From the NCBI GenBank assembly GCA_031281275.1, contig JAITFP010000043.1:1-64000 (forward strand): a DNA stretch of 64,000 nt. The letters are read 5' to 3'. Below the pieces are notes generated by a model. That model saw only the letters and a list, made by a program, of their open reading frames with translations. It did not search any database and was not told the DNA's origin. Numbering within the stretch: position 1 is the first letter of the stretch; each line of letters begins with the position of its first letter. The DNA comes from Candidatus Fibrimonadaceae bacterium (GTDB taxonomy: Bacteria; Fibrobacterota; Fibrobacteria; Fibrobacterales; Fibrobacteraceae). The position numbers were made by a program, and so were the translations under genes. Shown piece after piece: positions 27,941 through 47,841 of this stretch.

Positions 27941-29913
27941 AAAAAATAACTCTAATCGCAATAGCTTGCTTAAGCATAAATTCGTTTGCGCAGCAGTCTC
28001 AGCTTCCAACTTTAAGGGTAGCTACGAAAAACAATGCGACACCTGGATATACTACGCTCAATAACAATAACAGATTTTGCCCATCAGGTACCTATTCCGC
28101 AAACGTGATGCAACAAGATGCCAACGCAAGTACAAGTGGTGCTAACGCTTATAGTACAACCTATCTTGAGGCAACGGAGACTGAATTGAGCGGAGCGGCA
28201 GATTCTAGGCATAATTTCAAAAAAACATCGTCTGGTAAACCGAATGAGAGTGACTCTGTAAGGAGACGCGGGAATTCTACTGTTACTGTTAACAAAATAT
28301 CTTTCAGGCTTAAATTTGATAAAAGAACAGCAATGTTTGACAGACCCGCAGAAAAAAGCTGGGCGTTGCTCGCCAACTACTATGACCCCTCTTTAATGCA
28401 GAGTGCCATAGCCTTTTATCTCGGTCAAAAACTAAATCTTCAATTTACACCGCATGGCTACCATGTGAAATTGAACTTGGCAAACTCAAACAGAGGAGTT
28501 TACCTGCTCACTGAGCAAATTCAGAGAAGTGAGGCTAGTGTCAATATAGATAAGGAAGATGGATGGCTTGCAGAGTTTGACTATCATTGTGCCATCAGTG
28601 CAGATGATCAAAAGAGATTTTATCATACGGGTTCCAACAGATACAATATAAACGTAAAAATAAGGGAGCCAGATTTGGATGATTTGCCGCTAAATTCAAG
28701 CAGGCAACCAGATGGAACATGTTTAGACTTTGTTAAAAGCGACCTCAATGCGCTTTTAGACAAAATGAAAGAGAGCAGTTTTCCTAATAACGGCTATCGC
28801 GATTATATTGACCTTGACAGTTATGCAAAATATATAATGATTCAATTGTTTATGGATAATCAAGATTTCAACGGTCTTGTGAGCAGCAGTACTTTACTGG
28901 GTTCAAATTACGCTTATAAAAACAAAGGTGAAAAAATCAAAGCCGGTCCGCTTTGGGATCTTGACATAGCCTGCGGTTCTCCTTTGAATATGGGATTTGG
29001 TGGTTCTAGGCAATTTTTTAGTGATTACCAAGAGCAAATGGAGCCTCGCAACAACTTCTATAAAAGGCTTTGGGAAGACCCTGTATTCAGGTTCAAATAC
29101 AAAAAAATATGGAATGACAATAAGTCTATTTTCGAAAGTGTAAACAAAACTAATGGTGTTATAGATTCCCTAACTAACTTGATAGCAAGCGGTGTTGCTG
29201 GCAATGTTGGAGATGGCGTTAGCAATGTTACGGAGCAATCATATAGACAACATACTGCAAAATTTAAAACTTGGTGGGGGAATCGCATAAATTCTTTTGG
29301 AAACTACGTGAACGGCATGAGCAACGTAGCGAGTAGCGATGTTGCAGAATCAGCTCCAGCGGCAGTCCTTGTTAATAGCAAAAGGAATTGTAGAGAGGCA
29401 GTTAGCAGTAGCAGCAAACCAAGCAGTAGTAGTGTGTCGGTAAGCAGCAGCAGTAATACGAATAGCGGTTCTGTTACGTTAAGTTGCACGGGTCTTCAAT
29501 CAAGTGTTGAGAGGGGTGCTACTATAGTTGAACCAACTTTAACCTGCGACAATGGCAGCCAAGCAACTAATCCCAATTGGACTGGCCGCCCGCAACAAAA
29601 CAGTTCTTGGGCAGTAAGCGCAACCACTACCACCGCTAGCTATACCATAAGCGTAACTGCCTCATGCGGTTCATCTCAACTATCAGCAAACTGCGGCACA
29701 GTAGCGGTCGTTGATGGTTCTACACCAATAGCCAACACCATAGTCCTAGAAAATATGCCAAGCAACACAAAAATAGAAGTATATAATTTGCAAGGCAAGC
29801 GCATATATTCTGGCTATTCTGAAAATTCTGGGATTCTTAAAATTCCGGTTCAGACAAAAGGTATCTACATAATAAAAACAGCACATGGAACTCAACGCAT
29901 GGTGGTAAAATGA
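27937..29913 (+). CDS. CotH-kinase family secreted protein 3
   Basis: This 658-residue paralog has a signal peptide (KKITLIAIACLSINSFA) and a CotH core. The core has VRRRGNSTVTVNKISFRLKF, KSWALLANYYDPSLMQ, NSNRGVYLLTEQIQR and GPLWDLDIACG. A short poly-Ser linker (SSSKPSSSSVSVSSSSN), the Ig-like module (LSCTGLQSSVERGATIVE) and the sorting-type tail (IEVYNLQGKRIYSGYSE) follow. The first catalytic-region motif is more divergent than in copies 1, 2 and 4 (NKISFRLKF replaces KKPYRIKF), so kinase activity may differ. The gene overlaps its neighbours by 4 bases at both ends, so copies 2-4 are one translational unit. Confidence 0.85.
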   Translation: MKKITLIAIACLSINSFAQQSQLPTLRVATKNNATPGYTTLNNNNRFCPSGTYSANVMQQDANASTSGANAYSTTYLEATETELSGAADSRHNFKKTSSGKPNESDSVRRRGNSTVTVNKISFRLKFDKRTAMFDRPAEKSWALLANYYDPSLMQSAIAFYLGQKLNLQFTPHGYHVKLNLANSNRGVYLLTEQIQRSEASVNIDKEDGWLAEFDYHCAISADDQKRFYHTGSNRYNINVKIREPDLDDLPLNSSRQPDGTCLDFVKSDLNALLDKMKESSFPNNGYRDYIDLDSYAKYIMIQLFMDNQDFNGLVSSSTLLGSNYAYKNKGEKIKAGPLWDLDIACGSPLNMGFGGSRQFFSDYQEQMEPRNNFYKRLWEDPVFRFKYKKIWNDNKSIFESVNKTNGVIDSLTNLIASGVAGNVGDGVSNVTEQSYRQHTAKFKTWWGNRINSFGNYVNGMSNVASSDVAESAPAAVLVNSKRNCREAVSSSSKPSSSSVSVSSSSNTNSGSVTLSCTGLQSSVERGATIVEPTLTCDNGSQATNPNWTGRPQQNSSWAVSATTTTASYTISVTASCGSSQLSANCGTVAVVDGSTPIANTIVLENMPSNTKIEVYNLQGKRIYSGYSENSGILKIPVQTKGIYIIKTAHGTQRMVVK

Positions 29914-40223: not shown

Positions 40224-41351
40224 ATGGACACAAAACCTAAAAACCCGTTTTTAATATCTGGCTATCATAGCCCAGCCTATTTCTGCGACAGAGCCACAGA
40301 AACAAAACAAATAATATCTGCATTGCAAAACGGCAGAAATATATCTTTAATAAGCCCGCGCCGCATTGGAAAAACAGGGCTTATACACAATGTTTTTTAT
40401 TGTCTAAGGGAGAAGGATAAAAATTCAAACTGTTTTTACATAGATATTTTTGCAACTCAAAATTTGCTTGAATTTACAAACCTTTTAGGCAAAGCCGTTA
40501 TTGGGCAATTAGAGGGTAAACCGCAAAATGCAATAAAAAAAATAGCCAGTTTCTTTAAAAGTTTCAGACCTCTGTTTTCATTTGATTCCCAGACAGGAGT
40601 GCCGACAGTTTCTTTGGATATTAAATATGAACAAGCACAGAATAGTTTACAAGAAATTTTTTCATATCTTAAAAAGAGCGGAAAAACCATTTACATTGCT
40701 ATAGATGAATTTCAGCAAATTATGGATTATCCAGAAAAAGGAGTAGAAGCTCTGCTTCGTTCTTATATGCAATTTTTGCCTAATGTTCATTTTATTTTTT
40801 CTGGAAGTAAAAAACATTTGATGGATGCTATGTTTTCTTCGGTGAACAGACCATTTTACCAAAGTACGCAAAAAATAATTTTAAAGGAAATAGAAATTGA
40901 ATCTTACAGAAAATTTGCAATGAATATGTTTTTAAGATACAAAAAGAAATTACCAGCAAAAGTATTTGACTTTGTTTATGAAAATTTGCAAGGGCATACA
41001 TGGTACGTTCAATTGGTTCTAAATTTACTGTTTGCCATGGACAGAACAAATTATTCGGAACAAAACGCAAAGGAAGCGATAAATGGAATTTTACAAGAAG
41101 AAAACGCAACATATAAAACATATTGTGAAATGATAACCAGAGGGCAATTATACTTGCTTAGAGCAATAGCGAAAGAACATAGCGTAAAATCTCCCTATGA
41201 ATACTCTTTTATGCAAAAGCACGGTTTAAAAGCTGCCAGCAGCGTAAAATTGGCGCTCAAATCTCTGACGGATAAAACCTTAATTTTGAAAGGTGAAAAT
41301 GGTTATTATTATGTTTATGATAGATTTTTTTCATTGTGGTTGAAGGGTTGA
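40224..41351 (+). CDS. AAA family ATPase (archaeal-type ATPase/STAND-like) of unknown role
   Basis: This 375-residue protein belongs to a widespread family common in Bacteroidetes and archaea. The N-terminal NPFLISGYHSPAYFCDR motif is followed by Walker A LISPRRIGKTGLIHN (about residue 45-55) and Walker B IYIAIDEFQQI. A sensor-like FIFSGSKKHLMDAMF and a C-terminal winged-helix region (LLRAIAKEHSVKSPYEYSF, ASSVKLALKSLTDK) complete it. These proteins often occur as many paralogs per genome and are of unknown function. There is no signal peptide. No partner gene is apparent: the next gene starts 32 bases downstream with its own promoter box. Confidence 0.75.
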   Translation: MDTKPKNPFLISGYHSPAYFCDRATETKQIISALQNGRNISLISPRRIGKTGLIHNVFYCLREKDKNSNCFYIDIFATQNLLEFTNLLGKAVIGQLEGKPQNAIKKIASFFKSFRPLFSFDSQTGVPTVSLDIKYEQAQNSLQEIFSYLKKSGKTIYIAIDEFQQIMDYPEKGVEALLRSYMQFLPNVHFIFSGSKKHLMDAMFSSVNRPFYQSTQKIILKEIEIESYRKFAMNMFLRYKKKLPAKVFDFVYENLQGHTWYVQLVLNLLFAMDRTNYSEQNAKEAINGILQEENATYKTYCEMITRGQLYLLRAIAKEHSVKSPYEYSFMQKHGLKAASSVKLALKSLTDKTLILKGENGYYYVYDRFFSLWLKG

Positions 41352-41360
41352 AGGTCAATA

Positions 41361-41373
41361 AATTTTCTATATT
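41361..41373 (+). promoter_or_regulatory. TTTTCTATATT box of the 41,384 envelope-protein gene
   Basis: AATTTTCTATATT, 10 bases before the ATG at 41384; no clear -35 at the right distance. Confidence 0.45.
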
Positions 41374-41383
41374 AGAAGCATAT

Positions 41384-42139
41384 ATGCCCCTCAACTGCAA
41401 AAGAGCATTTATTCTGATATTTCTTGCCCTTGTCGTCCACGCACAAGAGCAGCAACGTGTTGCAATTCTGAGAACCGTGGATGACGGCGAACCGTCTGTG
41501 GAGATTACTGACTTATTTTTCCTTACAGGAAGGCTGCGCGAAATTGCCGGCAATGTTTTGCAGAATAATTATGGCATTATGACCGAACAGAGCATTATTG
41601 ACAAGCTGGGTGGCAGGGAAATTGCGGTGAAAGTCTGCAAGGAAACTGAGGGTTGCTTGGCACAGCTGGGCAGAAGGATAAACGCGGATTACATAGGGCA
41701 GGCGAGGCTGGGGCGTTTTGGCGGCAACCTGACAATAGTCGTGGAGCTATACAACAGCGGAAGCGGGTTGCAGGCTGCTCCTGCGATTACTGGGCAGGCT
41801 GAAAACATATCCGGCTTGCTTGATGTTTTGAATAAGAAAGCGCCGGAAATGTTCGGGAAAATGCCGGGTATTGTTTATGAGCAGGCGAAGCCTGTCAAAA
41901 CCAGTTTTTGGGTTGCCCTTGGCTTAGATATTCTAGGAGTGGCGGTTGTTTCTGTTGGGGTTGTAAAAAACTCGGAGATGAATGAGGCATTGGATAAATA
42001 CAACAAAAGAGGGCAAACGCCTGAATATTATAAAGATGCCCGTAAAGATGCGGAAAGCAGCCGCAACAGCAGGAATATGCTTTATGTCATTGGAGGTGTG
42101 GCTTTGGCTTCGGGTATGGGAGTGCATATATGGTTTTAA
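41384..42139 (+). CDS. Exported protein, paralog of the 46,186 TonB-like protein's N-terminal domain
   Basis: This is a 251-residue protein from the ATG at 41384 (MPLNCKRAFILIFLALVVHAQEQ: signal peptide ending HAQ). The N-terminal domain of about 150 residues (RVAILRTVDDGEPSVEIT, RLREIAGNVL, CLAQLGRRINADYIGQARLG) is closely similar to the first domain of the protein encoded at 46,186. It resembles the curli CsgG-like/TolB-like domains that collect periplasmic inputs. The C terminus has two hydrophobic segments (FWVALGLDILGVAVVSVGVV, MLYVIGGVALASGMGV). It overlaps the following FISUMP lipoprotein gene by 10 bases, which suggests joint function. Confidence 0.6.
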   Translation: MPLNCKRAFILIFLALVVHAQEQQRVAILRTVDDGEPSVEITDLFFLTGRLREIAGNVLQNNYGIMTEQSIIDKLGGREIAVKVCKETEGCLAQLGRRINADYIGQARLGRFGGNLTIVVELYNSGSGLQAAPAITGQAENISGLLDVLNKKAPEMFGKMPGIVYEQAKPVKTSFWVALGLDILGVAVVSVGVVKNSEMNEALDKYNKRGQTPEYYKDARKDAESSRNSRNMLYVIGGVALASGMGVHIWF

Positions 42140-43164
42140 GATTTTTTCTACTCACAGCAATGTTTCTTTTTGTGTCTTGCTCGGAAATGAAGTTCAACAA
42201 CCCAGACGATCCGGAAAGCTCCAAATATATCGGGAAATCCAGTTCCAGCTCTGATAAAGTGCCTTTGTCAAGCGCAAGGCAGAGCAGCAGCTCCAACGAA
42301 CCGTTCAGCAGTTCCTCCGCAGTTTTGCCAAGTTCTAGTTCTGCGACAAGTTCTAGTTCTTCGATGGTAGCGGCATTGTCTTCATCAAGCTCTAAGCAGA
42401 GCAGTAGTTCTAATGCACCGCCTAGTAGTTCCTCCGTTGCTATGCTAAGTTCTAGCTCGGCGGTTGTTTCTTCGTCAAGCATAACAGTATCAAGCAGTTC
42501 TTCTGCCGTTCCTAGTTCTAGTTCTGTGGTAGTATCTTCGTCAAGTTTAATGCCGAGTAGTAGTTCCATTGCACCACCTAGTAGTAGCTCTGTTGCTCCC
42601 AGTTCAAGCTCGATTCAAGCGGGTCCTTCTGTAATTCACGGGAGCGAGACTTATCAAACGGTTGTGATAGGCGAACAAACTTGGATGAATAGGAATTTGA
42701 ATTACAATGCAAGTGGTAGCAAATGTTATGACAACAACGAAGCCAACTGTGCTATTTACGGCAGGCTGTATAATTGGGCAACAGCAAAGACTGTTTGTCC
42801 TAGCGGTTGGCATTTGCCAAGTAATGCGGAGTGGAATGTCTTGATGAAATTCGTCAATCCTAGCTGTACTGACAATAGCAATTGTGCTGGTGCAGGAACA
42901 AAATTAAAGGCAACGAGCGGATGGTTTGAACCTGACAATGGCGAGGACACGTATGGCTTTTCCGCCCTGCCGGGCGGCCGCGGTCTTTCTGGTGGCAGTT
43001 TCTACGGTGTCGGCGGCTACGGCTACTGGTGGAGTGCCAGTGAGAAAGATAGCGACATCGCTTACGGCCGGGACATGTACGACTACCTCGATGACGTGCA
43101 CTGGGGCAACTACGATAAGAACTACATGTTCAGTGTCCGTTGCTTGCAAGATATTATGAATTAA
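42130..43164 (+). CDS. FISUMP-domain (Fibrobacter major paralogous domain) lipoprotein with possible hypervariable C terminus
   Basis: This 344-residue lipoprotein has the signal FFLLTAMFLFVSC (Cys 17). A poly-Ser linker of about 130 residues (many SSSSS runs) leads to a C-terminal FISUMP domain (TIGR02145) from about residue 170. The motifs are YQTVVIGEQTWMNRNLNY, GRLYNWATAKTVCPSGWHLP, AEWNVLMKFV, YGFSALPGGRG, YGYWWSASE and FSVRCLQD. The last 60 residues use mostly C-ending codons and raise GC sharply over the rest of the gene, a pattern expected of a diversity-generating retroelement target. The protein probably sits on the cell surface on a flexible stalk as a binding protein. Confidence 0.88.
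   Translation: MVLRFFLLTAMFLFVSCSEMKFNNPDDPESSKYIGKSSSSSDKVPLSSARQSSSSNEPFSSSSAVLPSSSSATSSSSSMVAALSSSSSKQSSSSNAPPSSSSVAMLSSSSAVVSSSSITVSSSSSAVPSSSSVVVSSSSLMPSSSSIAPPSSSSVAPSSSSIQAGPSVIHGSETYQTVVIGEQTWMNRNLNYNASGSKCYDNNEANCAIYGRLYNWATAKTVCPSGWHLPSNAEWNVLMKFVNPSCTDNSNCAGAGTKLKATSGWFEPDNGEDTYGFSALPGGRGLSGGSFYGVGGYGYWWSASEKDSDIAYGRDMYDYLDDVHWGNYDKNYMFSVRCLQDIMN
42960..43150 (+). other. Candidate DGR variable region in the FISUMP gene
   Basis: Codons at exposed positions are GGC, GAC, ATC, TAC, CTC, CAC and AAC: all one- or two-base variants of AAC with the C kept. They are interspersed with invariant framework codons (TGG TGG AGT GCC, TTC AGT GTC CGT TGC). This matches adenine-directed mutagenesis of a template rich in AAC. 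No reverse transcriptase, Avd or template repeat lies in this window. Confidence 0.5.
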
Positions 43165-43175
43165 CGTCATTGATG

Positions 43176-44237
43176 CTACAATAGTTGTTTAACAAACTCC
43201 GCCAATTCCCTCCCATTTTTCTCCGCCTGCCTCTTGCTCGGATGCCAATCCGCTCCATAACCAAGCGAACCATCTTGACGCGAAAACGAGAACCTGTGAA
43301 CCGAAATGCCTTGTTTTGCGAGTTCGGTTTTTGAAGCATCCAAAAATTTTTTGCAAAGGGTTAAACTAGGAACTCCTTTGGGCCAAAAATCGTTTAGCAT
43401 AGGACCGTCTGTTATGATTATTTGGGCATCGGGATATTTTTCCTTAACCTGCTTTGCGAACTTCACCATTGAATTGACAAACCCTGCGGAATCTGGCGCG
43501 CCCACGGCGAAATCATTTGTTCCAAGCTCTATAACGGCAATGTCTGGTTGCCAAGAAAAATCCCAGGGGATTTTTGAATTCACGCTTGTATACGGAAAAA
43601 ATTCCGGCAAAGTGCGGCGGTCTCCTGAATCTGAATTGTTGCGGAAAATTCCCCTGCCCGAAAAAGCCACGGTTCGCATTTCCGCATCTAGTTCCTTTGC
43701 GGCAACTCCTGCATAGGAAGAAAATACATCTTGAGTTTTTGGAGAATAGGTATGTTCCTTTACCGGATCTAAAACTCCGTAGCCTGCGGTTATGGAATTA
43801 CCTAAAAATTCAATTTTGAGTTTTGGTTTTTGCGGCAATGCTTCTTTTTTGGGAACGCCTTTTATTTCAAAGCCTTTGAAAAGAGCATCGCCTTGTATAG
43901 ATTCCGTGCGTTTAGCAACGCTGATTACATGAATCCCTTTTGCGAGATTTTTCGCTATGAGATGTTTTTCGTTTGCATTTGCCGATAAATCAAGAGGCGG
44001 CATTTGCTTGCCGTCCAAAGTTACGCTAAACACATTGCCGGGGCTTTTTAGCAAAATGCTTGCCTCTGTTCCTTCAAAAGCAATGATGAATTCAACGCCA
44101 GAAAATGAAGCTCTGGCAATATCCGCTTCTTTTGCAAAGCGACCATTTATGCTCACCGCTGAATCAAAGGGAGAGATTATCGTTTGGGCTATAACATTGC
44201 TCACGAGTATTCCAAAAAGTAGGTAAATGTGCATCAT
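43176..44237 (-). CDS. Secreted SGNH esterase, CE2-like acetyl-xylan esterase
   Basis: This 353-residue protein has a signal peptide (MMHIYLLFGILVSNVIAQ). An N-terminal jelly-roll domain (about 20-120, INGRFAKEADIARASFSG, FEGTEASILLKSPG) and a C-terminal SGNH hydrolase follow. The nucleophile motif is FLGNSITAGYG, block III is IELGTNDFA, and the catalytic Asp-His pair is GADWHPSKRQ. This two-domain layout is that of carbohydrate esterase family 2, which removes acetyl groups from xylan and other plant polysaccharides, fitting a fibre-degrading lifestyle. It is convergent with the FISUMP gene and divergent from recQ. A large palindrome sits between it and recQ. Confidence 0.82.
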   Translation of the reverse strand: MMHIYLLFGILVSNVIAQTIISPFDSAVSINGRFAKEADIARASFSGVEFIIAFEGTEASILLKSPGNVFSVTLDGKQMPPLDLSANANEKHLIAKNLAKGIHVISVAKRTESIQGDALFKGFEIKGVPKKEALPQKPKLKIEFLGNSITAGYGVLDPVKEHTYSPKTQDVFSSYAGVAAKELDAEMRTVAFSGRGIFRNNSDSGDRRTLPEFFPYTSVNSKIPWDFSWQPDIAVIELGTNDFAVGAPDSAGFVNSMVKFAKQVKEKYPDAQIIITDGPMLNDFWPKGVPSLTLCKKFLDASKTELAKQGISVHRFSFSRQDGSLGYGADWHPSKRQAEKNGRELAEFVKQLL

Positions 44238-44365: not shown

Positions 44366-46183
44366 ATGACTAAACTTGAAACCTTAAAGCAGTATTTTGG
44401 ATATGACAGTTTTCGCAGCGGGCAGGAAACTCTTATTGACGGCGTGGTTGCTGGCAGGGATGTTTTGGGAGTTATGCCCACCGGAGCGGGAAAATCTGTT
44501 TGTTTTCAGATACCTGCGCTTATGATGGATGGGGTTGCCATTATTGTGTCGCCGCTCATTTCGTTGATGAAAGACCAAGTGAACGCACTCACACAGTCGG
44601 GTATTCCGGCGGCTTTTATCAATTCTTCGCTTAGCGGATTGCAAATAGACAAAGCATTGCAAAAGGCACGGGAGGGGGCATACAAACTGATTTACGTTGC
44701 TCCCGAAAGATTGCTTGCTTCCGATTTTTTGAGCTTTGCGCAAACTGCCAAACTTTCTATGCTAACCGTTGATGAAGCTCACTGCATATCGCAATGGGGG
44801 CAGGATTTTCGCCCAAGCTATTCAAAGATACCGGAATTTGTTGCAAGTTTGCCCAAACGCCCAATTTTATCGGCTTTTACGGCAACAGCGACGGCGAAAG
44901 TTAGAGAGGATATAGTTGCTTTGCTCGGGTTAAATGACCCCATTGTTTTGGTTACGGGTTTTAATAGAGAGAATCTATATTTTGAAGTACAAAAAACCAA
45001 AGACAAATATGCAGCACTTACCACATTCCTCAACATTCAAAAAGAACGAAGCGGAATTGTTTATTGTTCCACTCGCGCTGCGGTTGAAGAGGTTTGCGAA
45101 AAATTGAAAACAGAAGGGTATAGCGCATCGCGCTATCACGCCGGACTTGCCGATGATGAGCGGCACGATAATCAAGATGATTTTTTATACGACCGTGTGC
45201 AGATAATGGTTGCAACAAATGCTTTTGGCATGGGAATAGATAAATCAAATGTATCTTTTGTGGTGCATTACAATATGCCCAAAGATATGGAAAGCTACTA
45301 TCAAGAAGCCGGACGTGCAGGGCGCGATGGCGGACCAGCAGATTGCATTTTGCTTTACAGCGGGCAAGATGTGCGCACGAATATGTGGCTCATTGAAAAT
45401 GCTCGCGATGTGCAATATCCCGACAAAGAAACAGAAGAATTGCTAAAAGAGCGAGACCGCAAGCGGTTGCGAGAAATGACATTTTACTGTTCCGTAAATG
45501 ATTGCCTGCGTGGATATATTCTTAAATATTTTGGAGAAAATCCACCGAATTATTGCGGCAACTGCGGTAATTGCGATACGAATTTTGAAATGGTTGATAT
45601 AACGGTTGAAGCGCAAAAAATTCTCTCTTGCGTAGCGAGGATGAAGGAGAGATATGGACAGAAAATGCTAATAGATGTGCTTAGAGGCAGCAAAAGCGAA
45701 AAAGTGCTGCGTTTGCAGCTTGATAAACTCTCAACTTATGGCATAAGCGAAAAAAGCGAAAAACAATTGTACGAGATGATCAACCAGTTAATTTTGAACG
45801 ATTATCTTTTAAAAACAGATGACGAATATCCCGTGTTAAGATTGGGAAATCGCGCAAGCGAAATTTTGCGAAACGGAAAAACCGTGCAGATGAAATTGGT
45901 AAAAGAAAAGCAAGCTCCAGAAATTGCAACCAATAAAAAACAAACCAGACCAGTTGACAACAGACTATTTGCTGTTTTGAGAGAACTAAGACTGGCAATA
46001 GCAAAAGAACAAAATGTTCCAGCATTCGTAATTTTCCCAGACAGTGCTTTGATAGATATGTGTATGAAAGTTCCCACGACAGACGAGGAATTTTTGAAGG
46101 TATCTGGTGTTGGCAAAGTAAAGCTGGAAAGGTATGGCGAAAAATTTTTAAAAGTTATTGTGGAATTTCTACATTACAAATAG
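44366..46183 (+). CDS. recQ: ATP-dependent DNA helicase RecQ
   Basis: RecQ is a 3'-5' helicase for recombination and repair. It has Walker A MPTGAGKSVCFQ, DEAHCISQWGQDFRPSY, FTATAT, and motifs V and VI (ATNAFGMGIDK, YQEAGRAGRDG). The RQC zinc-binding region is CSVNDCLRG ... CGNCGNCD. A C-terminal HRDC domain (FAVLRELRLAIAKEQNVP ... LKVSGVGKVKLERYG) completes a full-length RecQ of about 605 residues. I use ATG at 44366 (MTKLETLKQYFGYDSF), as the ORF-track start five codons earlier adds only MRLLY. The tyrosine-rich TATATATG context resembles other promoters here. The next gene starts 2 bases after its stop. Confidence 0.94.
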   Translation: MTKLETLKQYFGYDSFRSGQETLIDGVVAGRDVLGVMPTGAGKSVCFQIPALMMDGVAIIVSPLISLMKDQVNALTQSGIPAAFINSSLSGLQIDKALQKAREGAYKLIYVAPERLLASDFLSFAQTAKLSMLTVDEAHCISQWGQDFRPSYSKIPEFVASLPKRPILSAFTATATAKVREDIVALLGLNDPIVLVTGFNRENLYFEVQKTKDKYAALTTFLNIQKERSGIVYCSTRAAVEEVCEKLKTEGYSASRYHAGLADDERHDNQDDFLYDRVQIMVATNAFGMGIDKSNVSFVVHYNMPKDMESYYQEAGRAGRDGGPADCILLYSGQDVRTNMWLIENARDVQYPDKETEELLKERDRKRLREMTFYCSVNDCLRGYILKYFGENPPNYCGNCGNCDTNFEMVDITVEAQKILSCVARMKERYGQKMLIDVLRGSKSEKVLRLQLDKLSTYGISEKSEKQLYEMINQLILNDYLLKTDDEYPVLRLGNRASEILRNGKTVQMKLVKEKQAPEIATNKKQTRPVDNRLFAVLRELRLAIAKEQNVPAFVIFPDSALIDMCMKVPTTDEEFLKVSGVGKVKLERYGEKFLKVIVEFLHYK

Positions 46184-46185
46184 AT

Positions 46186-47841
46186 ATGTCCCTCAGCTGC
46201 AAAAGAGTGTTTATTTTACTATTTCTTACCCTTGCTATCCACGCACAAGAGCAGAAACGTGTTGCGATATTGAATACGGAGGATAACGGCGAGCCATCGC
46301 TGGAATTTACGGATTTGACCTATTTGACCGATAGGTTGCGTGAAATAGCTGGGAATATGCTGCCCGAAGATAAATACTTTGTTATGACCACGCAGAGCAT
46401 AATAGACAAGATGGGTTCAAAGGAGAACGCCCGAAAAGTATGCAAAGAGGCGACGTGCATGGCTGAAATTGGCAGGAAAATAAGTGCTGAGTATATCGGT
46501 CAGGCAAGGCTAGGTCGTTTTGACGGCAATTTTACAATAAGTATGGAATTGTATCATAGCGCAAGAGGCAATTTGCTTGTTTCCTTCACTGGTAAAGCGA
46601 AAGACGTATCTGGTTTGGAGGCTGTTATAGATGAAAAAGCACCACAAATGTTTGGCAAAATGCCTGGTGCCTCTGGCGGTTCAAAAACTACTCCCGTTGC
46701 TCCTGTTGTTGCTGGTGGCATTAGCGGCGTACAATCCACAGGCAGAGATTATGAGTTTGAAGGCAGAAAAAGTTACTTGGCAAGTATAGCTACAGAGCCA
46801 GAAGGAGCGGTCGTAAGTTTTAACGGAGTGCCCGATTCTCGCTGCACCAAAACGCCTTGCAAATTAACGCTTGCGGAAGGCAATGTTCGCATAGTGGCGG
46901 CATTGGAGCAGTACGAGAGGGCAGACACCACGGTTTTCATAAAACAGAACAACCAGAACATAAGCATCAGGCTAAAAGCGAATTTCGGTGTTTTGGAGAT
47001 AAAACCAGCCTATTCCGATGGCATAGGCAAAGACGAGCAATGGGGTTTATCAATAAACGGCAAGGTATCTTCTTTTTTGGAAAGCAAGCTTTCACCGGGT
47101 AAATATAAGGTAGAACTCAGCCATAGGTGCTATGAAACTTTAAGTTTTGATGCAGGGATAAACAAGGATAAGCGCGAAGTTTTTGATATTGCTACTTATA
47201 TAAAATTGAAAAAAGGAGGCTTGGTTTTGAACGCGGAGAAAAATGGCGAACCAGTTAGCGAACCCGTTTTCGTGAACGGCAAGCAGGCAGGGGAAACTCC
47301 GTTCAGTGGTTCTGTGCCTTTGTGCGCAAAAATTGAGATTGGCAAAAACAGAGAAATAGTTAATGTAAAATTAGAATACAACGAAAAAGTCAATTATACA
47401 TACAAAGTCAACTTAGACAACAGGCTTGGTTCTGGCGGTATTGGTGATGCGCTTGGCGGCTTGATGGGTGGTAGCGCAGGCGGTCTTGGCACAAAAGCCA
47501 AAGGCTCTTTAAAGGCTCCGAGCGCAAGAGATATAGATATGGGTTCTGGCGATGGTTCTCGCTCCAAAGCGGAAATTATGGCTGTTGTTAATGCCCGTAT
47601 GCCAGGTTTAAGAAACATCTATAACAAGTATTTGAAGTTGAAACCGGGCTTTAGCGGCAAGGTTACTCTCAAATTCACCATTGCTCCCGGTGGCGATATT
47701 GTTAGCATTAGCATTGTGTCTTCCACAACAGGCTATGGCGAGTTTGATACCGCTGTTAAGAATATGGTGGCAACTTGGAAATGGAAGGTTATAAAGAGTG
47801 GCAACACTACTCCGACCATACCATTTAATTTCACGGAATAA
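46186..47841 (+). CDS. Exported PEGA-domain protein with TonB/AgmX-like C terminus
   Basis: This 551-residue protein from ATG 46186 has a signal peptide (LSCKRVFILLFLTLAIHAQ). An N-terminal domain shared with the 41,384 protein follows (RVAILNTEDNGEPSLEFTD, ISAEYIGQARLGRFDG). At about 200-290 lies a PEGA-type repeat (IATEPEGAVVSFNGVPDS, TPCKLTLAEGNVRIVAA), with further beta-rich segments and a Gly-rich linker. The C-terminal TonB_C/AgmX-PglI-like domain (LRNIYNKYLKLKPGFSGKV, FTIAPGGDIVSISIVSSTTG) ends it. The arrangement suggests a periplasmic or outer-membrane-associated energy-coupling or gliding-type protein. The ORF-track start at 46060 lies inside recQ. A strong terminator follows. Confidence 0.72.
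   Translation: MSLSCKRVFILLFLTLAIHAQEQKRVAILNTEDNGEPSLEFTDLTYLTDRLREIAGNMLPEDKYFVMTTQSIIDKMGSKENARKVCKEATCMAEIGRKISAEYIGQARLGRFDGNFTISMELYHSARGNLLVSFTGKAKDVSGLEAVIDEKAPQMFGKMPGASGGSKTTPVAPVVAGGISGVQSTGRDYEFEGRKSYLASIATEPEGAVVSFNGVPDSRCTKTPCKLTLAEGNVRIVAALEQYERADTTVFIKQNNQNISIRLKANFGVLEIKPAYSDGIGKDEQWGLSINGKVSSFLESKLSPGKYKVELSHRCYETLSFDAGINKDKREVFDIATYIKLKKGGLVLNAEKNGEPVSEPVFVNGKQAGETPFSGSVPLCAKIEIGKNREIVNVKLEYNEKVNYTYKVNLDNRLGSGGIGDALGGLMGGSAGGLGTKAKGSLKAPSARDIDMGSGDGSRSKAEIMAVVNARMPGLRNIYNKYLKLKPGFSGKVTLKFTIAPGGDIVSISIVSSTTGYGEFDTAVKNMVATWKWKVIKSGNTTPTIPFNFTE

Follow-up and report, generated by a model that had tools for sequence, protein, structure and literature searches.

A candidate DGR variable region, probably rewritten in trans, at the 3′ end of a FISUMP lipoprotein gene from Candidatus Fibrimonadaceae

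The locus examined here raises the question of why the 3′ end of a single lipoprotein gene looks so unlike the rest of it. The gene (42130..43164, plus strand, an ORF of 344 aa) lies in the window, by which we mean the whole 64-kb stretch of Candidatus Fibrimonadaceae DNA that was analysed, and its terminal segment exceeds the remainder both in C-ending codons (54% vs 21%) and in GC content (57% vs 45%). A first-pass annotation made from the sequence had remarked on this and proposed that the segment is a diversity-generating retroelement (DGR) variable region (VR), in which the codons GAC, ATC, GGC, TAC, CTC, CAC and AAC reflect random replacement of the adenines of AAC. This codon set does reach its peak in the VR (28/63 codons, the next best stretch in any frame of at least 100 codons in the window having 18). 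Our best explanation, to which we give a probability of about 95%, is that the window VR (42956..43151, plus strand), which forms the last 65 codons of the gene, is a remote DGR variable region rewritten in trans from a template of the type found on contig C8 of the same genome. This reading draws on the template itself, the reverse transcriptase (RT), the adenine bias, the retained third bases, the absence of hairpins and the divergence of the VR after duplication of the gene. Two observations count against it: the non-adenine differences from the template amount to about 7% (0–2% in the freshest VRs), and no hairpin lies downstream of the window VR.

The target gene and its template repeat

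Profile searches identify the product of 42130–43164 as a FISUMP protein, with PF09603 (E=1.8e-29, 103.8 bits against a cut-off of 33.9) and TIGR02145 (E=3.8e-49, 167.7 bits against a curated cut-off of 41.65). By inspection it starts with a lipoprotein-like signal and lipobox (MVLRFFLLTAMFLFVSC); a poly-Ser stalk follows (coding region 42230..42625, plus strand, approximate limits taken from the translation) and the FISUMP domain makes up the C-terminal part. The sequence of the domain had no match among PDB sequences. The structure predicted for residues 167–344 is confident (pLDDT 95) and its best matches among PDB structures are mostly CLec proteins, these matches being weak (E>=0.018, TM-scores mostly 0.24–0.38); we treat a C-type-lectin fold as a lead from this model, and surface location and ligand binding of the lipoprotein as putative. 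Upstream, the 3′ end of a partner gene (41336–42139, plus strand, with 41384, MPLNCKRAFIL..., a more plausible start than 41336) overlaps the start of the FISUMP gene and encodes a secreted protein whose C terminus carries a hydrophobic segment. Elsewhere in the genome partner homologues are found upstream of many FISUMP VRs, or fused with them in one ORF, often with a PEGA domain, and the order partner then FISUMP is kept in a Fibrobacter cassette, which suggests that the two proteins work jointly. The partner’s PDB match to 7y9n (E=8e-4) was treated as spurious, 7y9n being an engineered spike construct. Another window gene (46060–47841) combines the partner N-terminal family and PEGA with a TonB/AgmX-type C-terminal domain at the place where fused copies have FISUMP. 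In those relatives that have the esterase found downstream, no FISUMP gene lay beside it within the stretch examined.

The range first proposed for the VR (42960–43150) is close to the block that is homologous to a template repeat (TR) on C8, which we call TR-A (C8:1513-1709, minus strand, outside the window). As many as 25 of the 64 codons of TR-A are AAC or AAT (translated, the repeat reads SALPGGNGNSGGNFNNVGNNGNWWSASENNSNNAYNRNMNYNNENVNYNNNNKNNMFSVRCLQD). When the codons of the window VR and TR-A are aligned without gaps, 30/65 template adenines are changed, as against 9/127 other bases (p=6.7e-10), the concentration at template adenines that a DGR origin had led the first-pass annotation to expect, and the blocks it had called invariant (TGG TGG AGT GCC and TTC AGT GTx CGx TGC) fall on adenine-poor or 3′-end stretches of the TR. 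The behaviour of the AAY codons is more telling: 22/25 are changed at positions 1–2 in the window VR and the third base is kept in 22/22 of these, the figure for changed codons being 32% in an internal control made up of the genome’s 36 most distant FISUMP copies (p=1.2e-11). We relied on the codon alignment for this test, as the DNA aligner used favours mismatches at template A and inflates the odds ratios of distant copies. The window VR scores 294 against TR-A and 204 against a second template, TR-B.

The 3′ segment of the VR (43128..43152, plus strand) is IMH-like and free of adenine changes, and it reads GTC CGT where TR-A has GTT CGG; CGT replaces CGG in 27/30 aligned VRs and GTC replaces GTT in 14/30. 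Part of the drift of the window VR is in this 3′ end, in which VRs in general depart from TR-A. Codon 47 (TAC to TGG) matches the TR of a relative, G012, and another part of the drift possibly stems from an older template allele. Overall the assignment of 42956–43151 as a DGR variable region is supported, and the attempt to refute it by a search of the genome failed.

Cassettes encoding reverse transcriptase and Avd

The genome (G000; 2.71 Mb in 124 contigs, 79% complete) has two RTs with RVT_1 matches above cut-off, one on C8 and one on C109, so the template repeat and the DGR-type RT with Avd that the first-pass annotation had predicted are all present in it. On both contigs the order is a FISUMP gene with a VR, an accessory gene (261–273 aa), a template repeat and the RT gene; TR-A on C8 and TR-B on C109 each lie between accessory gene and RT. 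Both RT frames are open and their translations contain YVDD and IGNLTSQ, the latter fitting IGxxxSQ, which we take to be a DGR signature. The cis VRs of these cassettes carry a cleaner adenine signature than the window VR, with changes relative to their own templates at 30/65 adenines and 2/132 other bases on C8 and at 23/70 adenines and 1/127 other bases on C109. TR is in frame with RT, and the RT ORF of C109 consequently gets a FISUMP profile match, an annotation trap by which a TR could pass for a coding domain.

The accessory proteins (C8:1732-2550, minus strand; C109:6463-7248, plus strand) match Avd (NF033474, E=6.5e-10, below the curated cut-off; phrog_3206, E=2.9e-12). In Bacteroidetes and other relatives their N-terminal domain is encoded by a neighbouring gene of its own, which matches MutS_I weakly, and the MSL accessory has been described as PF01624 (PMC10053308). 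The domain is thus the known MSL accessory, and MSL and Avd are fused in Fibrobacterota. The modelled structure of the MSL–Avd protein is of low confidence (pLDDT 69.5) and its matches to PDB sequences were all insignificant.

A family of remote targets and their 3′ hairpins

The genome contains at least 150 FISUMP domains (161 profile matches). At least 19/150 copies are recent VRs, with a non-adenine difference of 12% or less and 86–100% of third bases kept; with the false-discovery rate set at 0.1%, 57/150 carry the third-base fingerprint. Among the 12 best VRs a template A appears as A, G, T or C with frequencies of.55,.25,.16 and.05, other bases being kept at 92–96%. VRs of the TR-A type lie on many contigs (C52, C18, C43, C70, C11, C87, C109, C42, C119 and others). 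That of C52 has 26 adenine changes and one 3-base gap as its only differences in a DNA alignment over 197 template bases; as the TR-A cassette sits on C8, homing in trans is the best explanation for this VR. C109, a 102-kb contig, carries two TR-A-type VRs as well as the second cassette, an argument against simple contamination as the source of the C8 template. On the sequence evidence, then, this is a genome-wide network of FISUMP targets on which the DGR probably works in trans. One 1641-aa VR protein (L053:11062-15984, the C10:26251 copy) has Listeria–Bacteroides repeats before its FISUMP domain, and similar repeats occur near 29560–29740 of the window.

Two tandem GC hairpins come immediately after the majority of the VRs with the least drift, the first being GGCGC-TTTTAC-GCGCC and the second CCGCTAGC-loop-GCAAGCGG. 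With two mismatches allowed, the pattern of hairpin 1 has 12 matches in the genome, of which 11 follow FISUMP VRs and the remaining one is at the edge of C66, where the bases before it are the cut-off 3′ end of a VR. All 12 matches to the hairpin 2 pattern in the genome (12/12) follow VRs, and a reversed control of this pattern had no match in the genome. The rest of the genus contributes 38 further hairpins, and among the matches listed at least 18 are placed 15–99 nt after a VR-like match. The stem sequence of the hairpins varies while pairing is kept (GGCGC/GCGCC, GGCAC/GTGCC, GGGC/GCCC). With hairpins called by motif plus folding (a strict inverted-repeat scan under-calls them), the median non-adenine difference is 9% for copies with a hairpin and 31% for those without (p=1.4e-10), and drift correlates with the folding energy of the flank (rho 0.55, p=1.8e-10), both p values overstating independence as the copies are related. 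Hairpins are present in 9/10 VRs with less than 6.5% drift and in 0/49 copies with 30% or more.

The 3′ flank of the window VR, taken from the stop codon (43162..43223, plus strand), matches neither hairpin pattern, and folded as single-stranded DNA it gives −1.6 kcal/mol (z=0.03, no better than shuffles); the flanks of two VRs that do have hairpins gave −12.4 and −17.1.

History of the window copy and comparison with other systems

A sibling of the two-gene unit on C1 allows the order of events to be considered. The two units are 92% identical in the partner and 90% in the stalk, and 77% identical in the VR, where differences fall at 28/62 template-A columns and 12/128 others (p=4.5e-8). As the VR has diverged beyond stalk and partner, and mostly at template-A columns, the rewriting of one of the two VRs, if not of both, came after duplication of the gene and its partner. 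The flank of the C1 copy also has neither hairpin motif. The scheme that we favour begins with this duplication; later the RT and MSL–Avd of C8, or those of a predecessor cassette whose template was nearly identical, would have copied the adenine-rich template RNA with misincorporation opposite adenines, and the cDNA would have replaced the 3′ end of the window FISUMP gene in trans. The product would most likely be an outer-membrane lipoprotein, its diversified binding face carried on the poly-Ser stalk, working with the overlapping upstream partner. Hairpin loss and gathering non-adenine drift would then mark the window copy as probably frozen; given the absent hairpins and the drift of about 7%, it is most simply read as a copy first diversified and afterwards frozen, probably not hypervariable at present.

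Other histories can be set against this one. Ordinary divergence of paralogs, with positive selection on binding-loop codons and no DGR, would suit a family of 161 matches, and in the distant copies too changes are slightly enriched at template-A sites, an enrichment inflated by the aligner. If 22 of 25 codons had been replaced in the ordinary way, however, their third bases would have been randomised, and here all are kept; the genome also has a template accompanied by RT and Avd. We consider this alternative very improbable. Many similar donors exist for a patch of the window VR made by gene conversion, with another VR and not template cDNA as its source, yet at the adenine sites none of the other aligned VRs shares the full pattern of bases that conversion would have left, and we consider this route improbable. 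The VR may have been written from another template allele, either an ancestor of TR-A or a third TR lying in the 21% of the genome that is missing, its non-adenine differences not being drift at all: some recur among the 30 aligned VRs (the third base of codon 47, C to G, in 7/30; the CGT of codon 59 described above) and some match templates of relatives. Against it, TR-A is far better than the other known template, and the window differences at codons 28 and 40 are rare among the aligned VRs. We hold this possible, short of probable, and the template behind the window VR may indeed be an older or unassembled allele, the genome being 79% complete.

The last alternative, that the window VR is still an active target reached by trans retrohoming at a normal or reduced rate without hairpins, is in our judgement rather unlikely. 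It gains from the perfect third-base signature and from the VR at C43:15533, which has a degenerate flank and a non-adenine difference of just 4%. In Bordetella phage BPP-1 the hairpin just after the VR is of great help to homing (PMC3240598), and without it homing is impaired, not abolished (PMC12875486). The association of hairpins and stable flanks with low drift across the family argues the other way and for the frozen copy that we prefer. If extended to the genus, that preference would give a picture for which we put the chances near even, in which a small DGR machinery acts in trans on dozens of FISUMP binders, tandem 3′ hairpins license rewriting, and loss of hairpins freezes a copy, leaving live targets beside an archive of fixed former ones.

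The DGR mechanism is already known, as is Fib_succ_major as a DGR target: together with DUF1566 variable proteins it was described from human metagenomes and listed as a target domain (PMC4159848), there from metagenome contigs and here as a family of targets spread through the genome of a Fibrobacterota member. The mtd/avd/brt system of BPP-1 shares with the present one a cassette of VR gene, avd, TR and RT, the adenine-directed changes, the VR at the gene’s 3′ end and a GC hairpin just after it, the importance of which for homing is established there (PMC3240598); it has one target in cis, whereas here there are many remote targets, tandem hairpins and an MSL domain fused to Avd. Treponema denticola also serves several dispersed targets (2–7 per isolate) from one RT and TR (PMC4891356), although these are TvpA-type whereas ours are FISUMP, with at least 19 recent targets and a graded series of older ones. 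The network of Thiohalocapsa PB-PSB1 is likewise multi-target and partly in trans (PMC10907252), with nine loci and 15 target genes tied to conflict systems; the present genome has two cassettes, and its FISUMP targets are secreted proteins or lipoproteins. A further parallel is offered by cyanobacterial DGRs with remote CLec paralogs, where the VR domain is dispersed in the genome on varied N-termini and cruciforms were suggested to activate remote targets (PMC7517822); that study covers 76 remote targets over 21 genomes, whereas our comparison relates the presence of hairpins to the decay of VRs within one genome. The largest genuine multi-target cases in the literature consulted are T. denticola (7) and Thiohalocapsa (15); one survey gives larger repeat counts, but these are atypical and not adenine-directed. 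Neither a target number on this scale, nor the relation of hairpins to drift, nor the MSL–Avd fusion was found in the open-access literature, and no role for FISUMP, the ‘major paralogous’ domain of Fibrobacter, in the literature searched. The results suggest that a large share of the FISUMP domains in this genome are current or past DGR targets. The graded VRs with and without hairpins offer a natural test within one genome of what makes a trans DGR target, and the hairpin pair is a practical motif for finding remote VRs missed by contig-based surveys, whose blindness to such VRs has been stated (PMC8144416).

Among relatives, 28/111 genomes of the family have an RT match; the named close matches are to Candidatus Fibrimonadaceae and Fibrobacteria MAGs. 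These MAGs are presumably of termite-gut origin. Fibrobacter genomes have the cassette as well, and in one of them the cis VR differs from its own TR at 27/64 adenines and 1/131 other bases. Since they have few VR-like places (0–8 per genome, compared with at least 40 here, one Fibrobacter template having been used for six genomes), the many-target expansion looks specific to the genus of the window organism. Within that genus, hairpin 2 matches number 0, 0 and 1 in G004, G005 and G007, where no RT was found, and 3–17 in the RT-bearing G003, G009, G012 and G013; the misfits are G011, with an RT and no hairpin, and G008 and G010, 60–77% complete, with hairpins and no RT found. A 99% complete Fibrobacter genome (G027) has four RT matches of this type, one of them in a cassette of partner, FISUMP, MSL–Avd, TR and RT.
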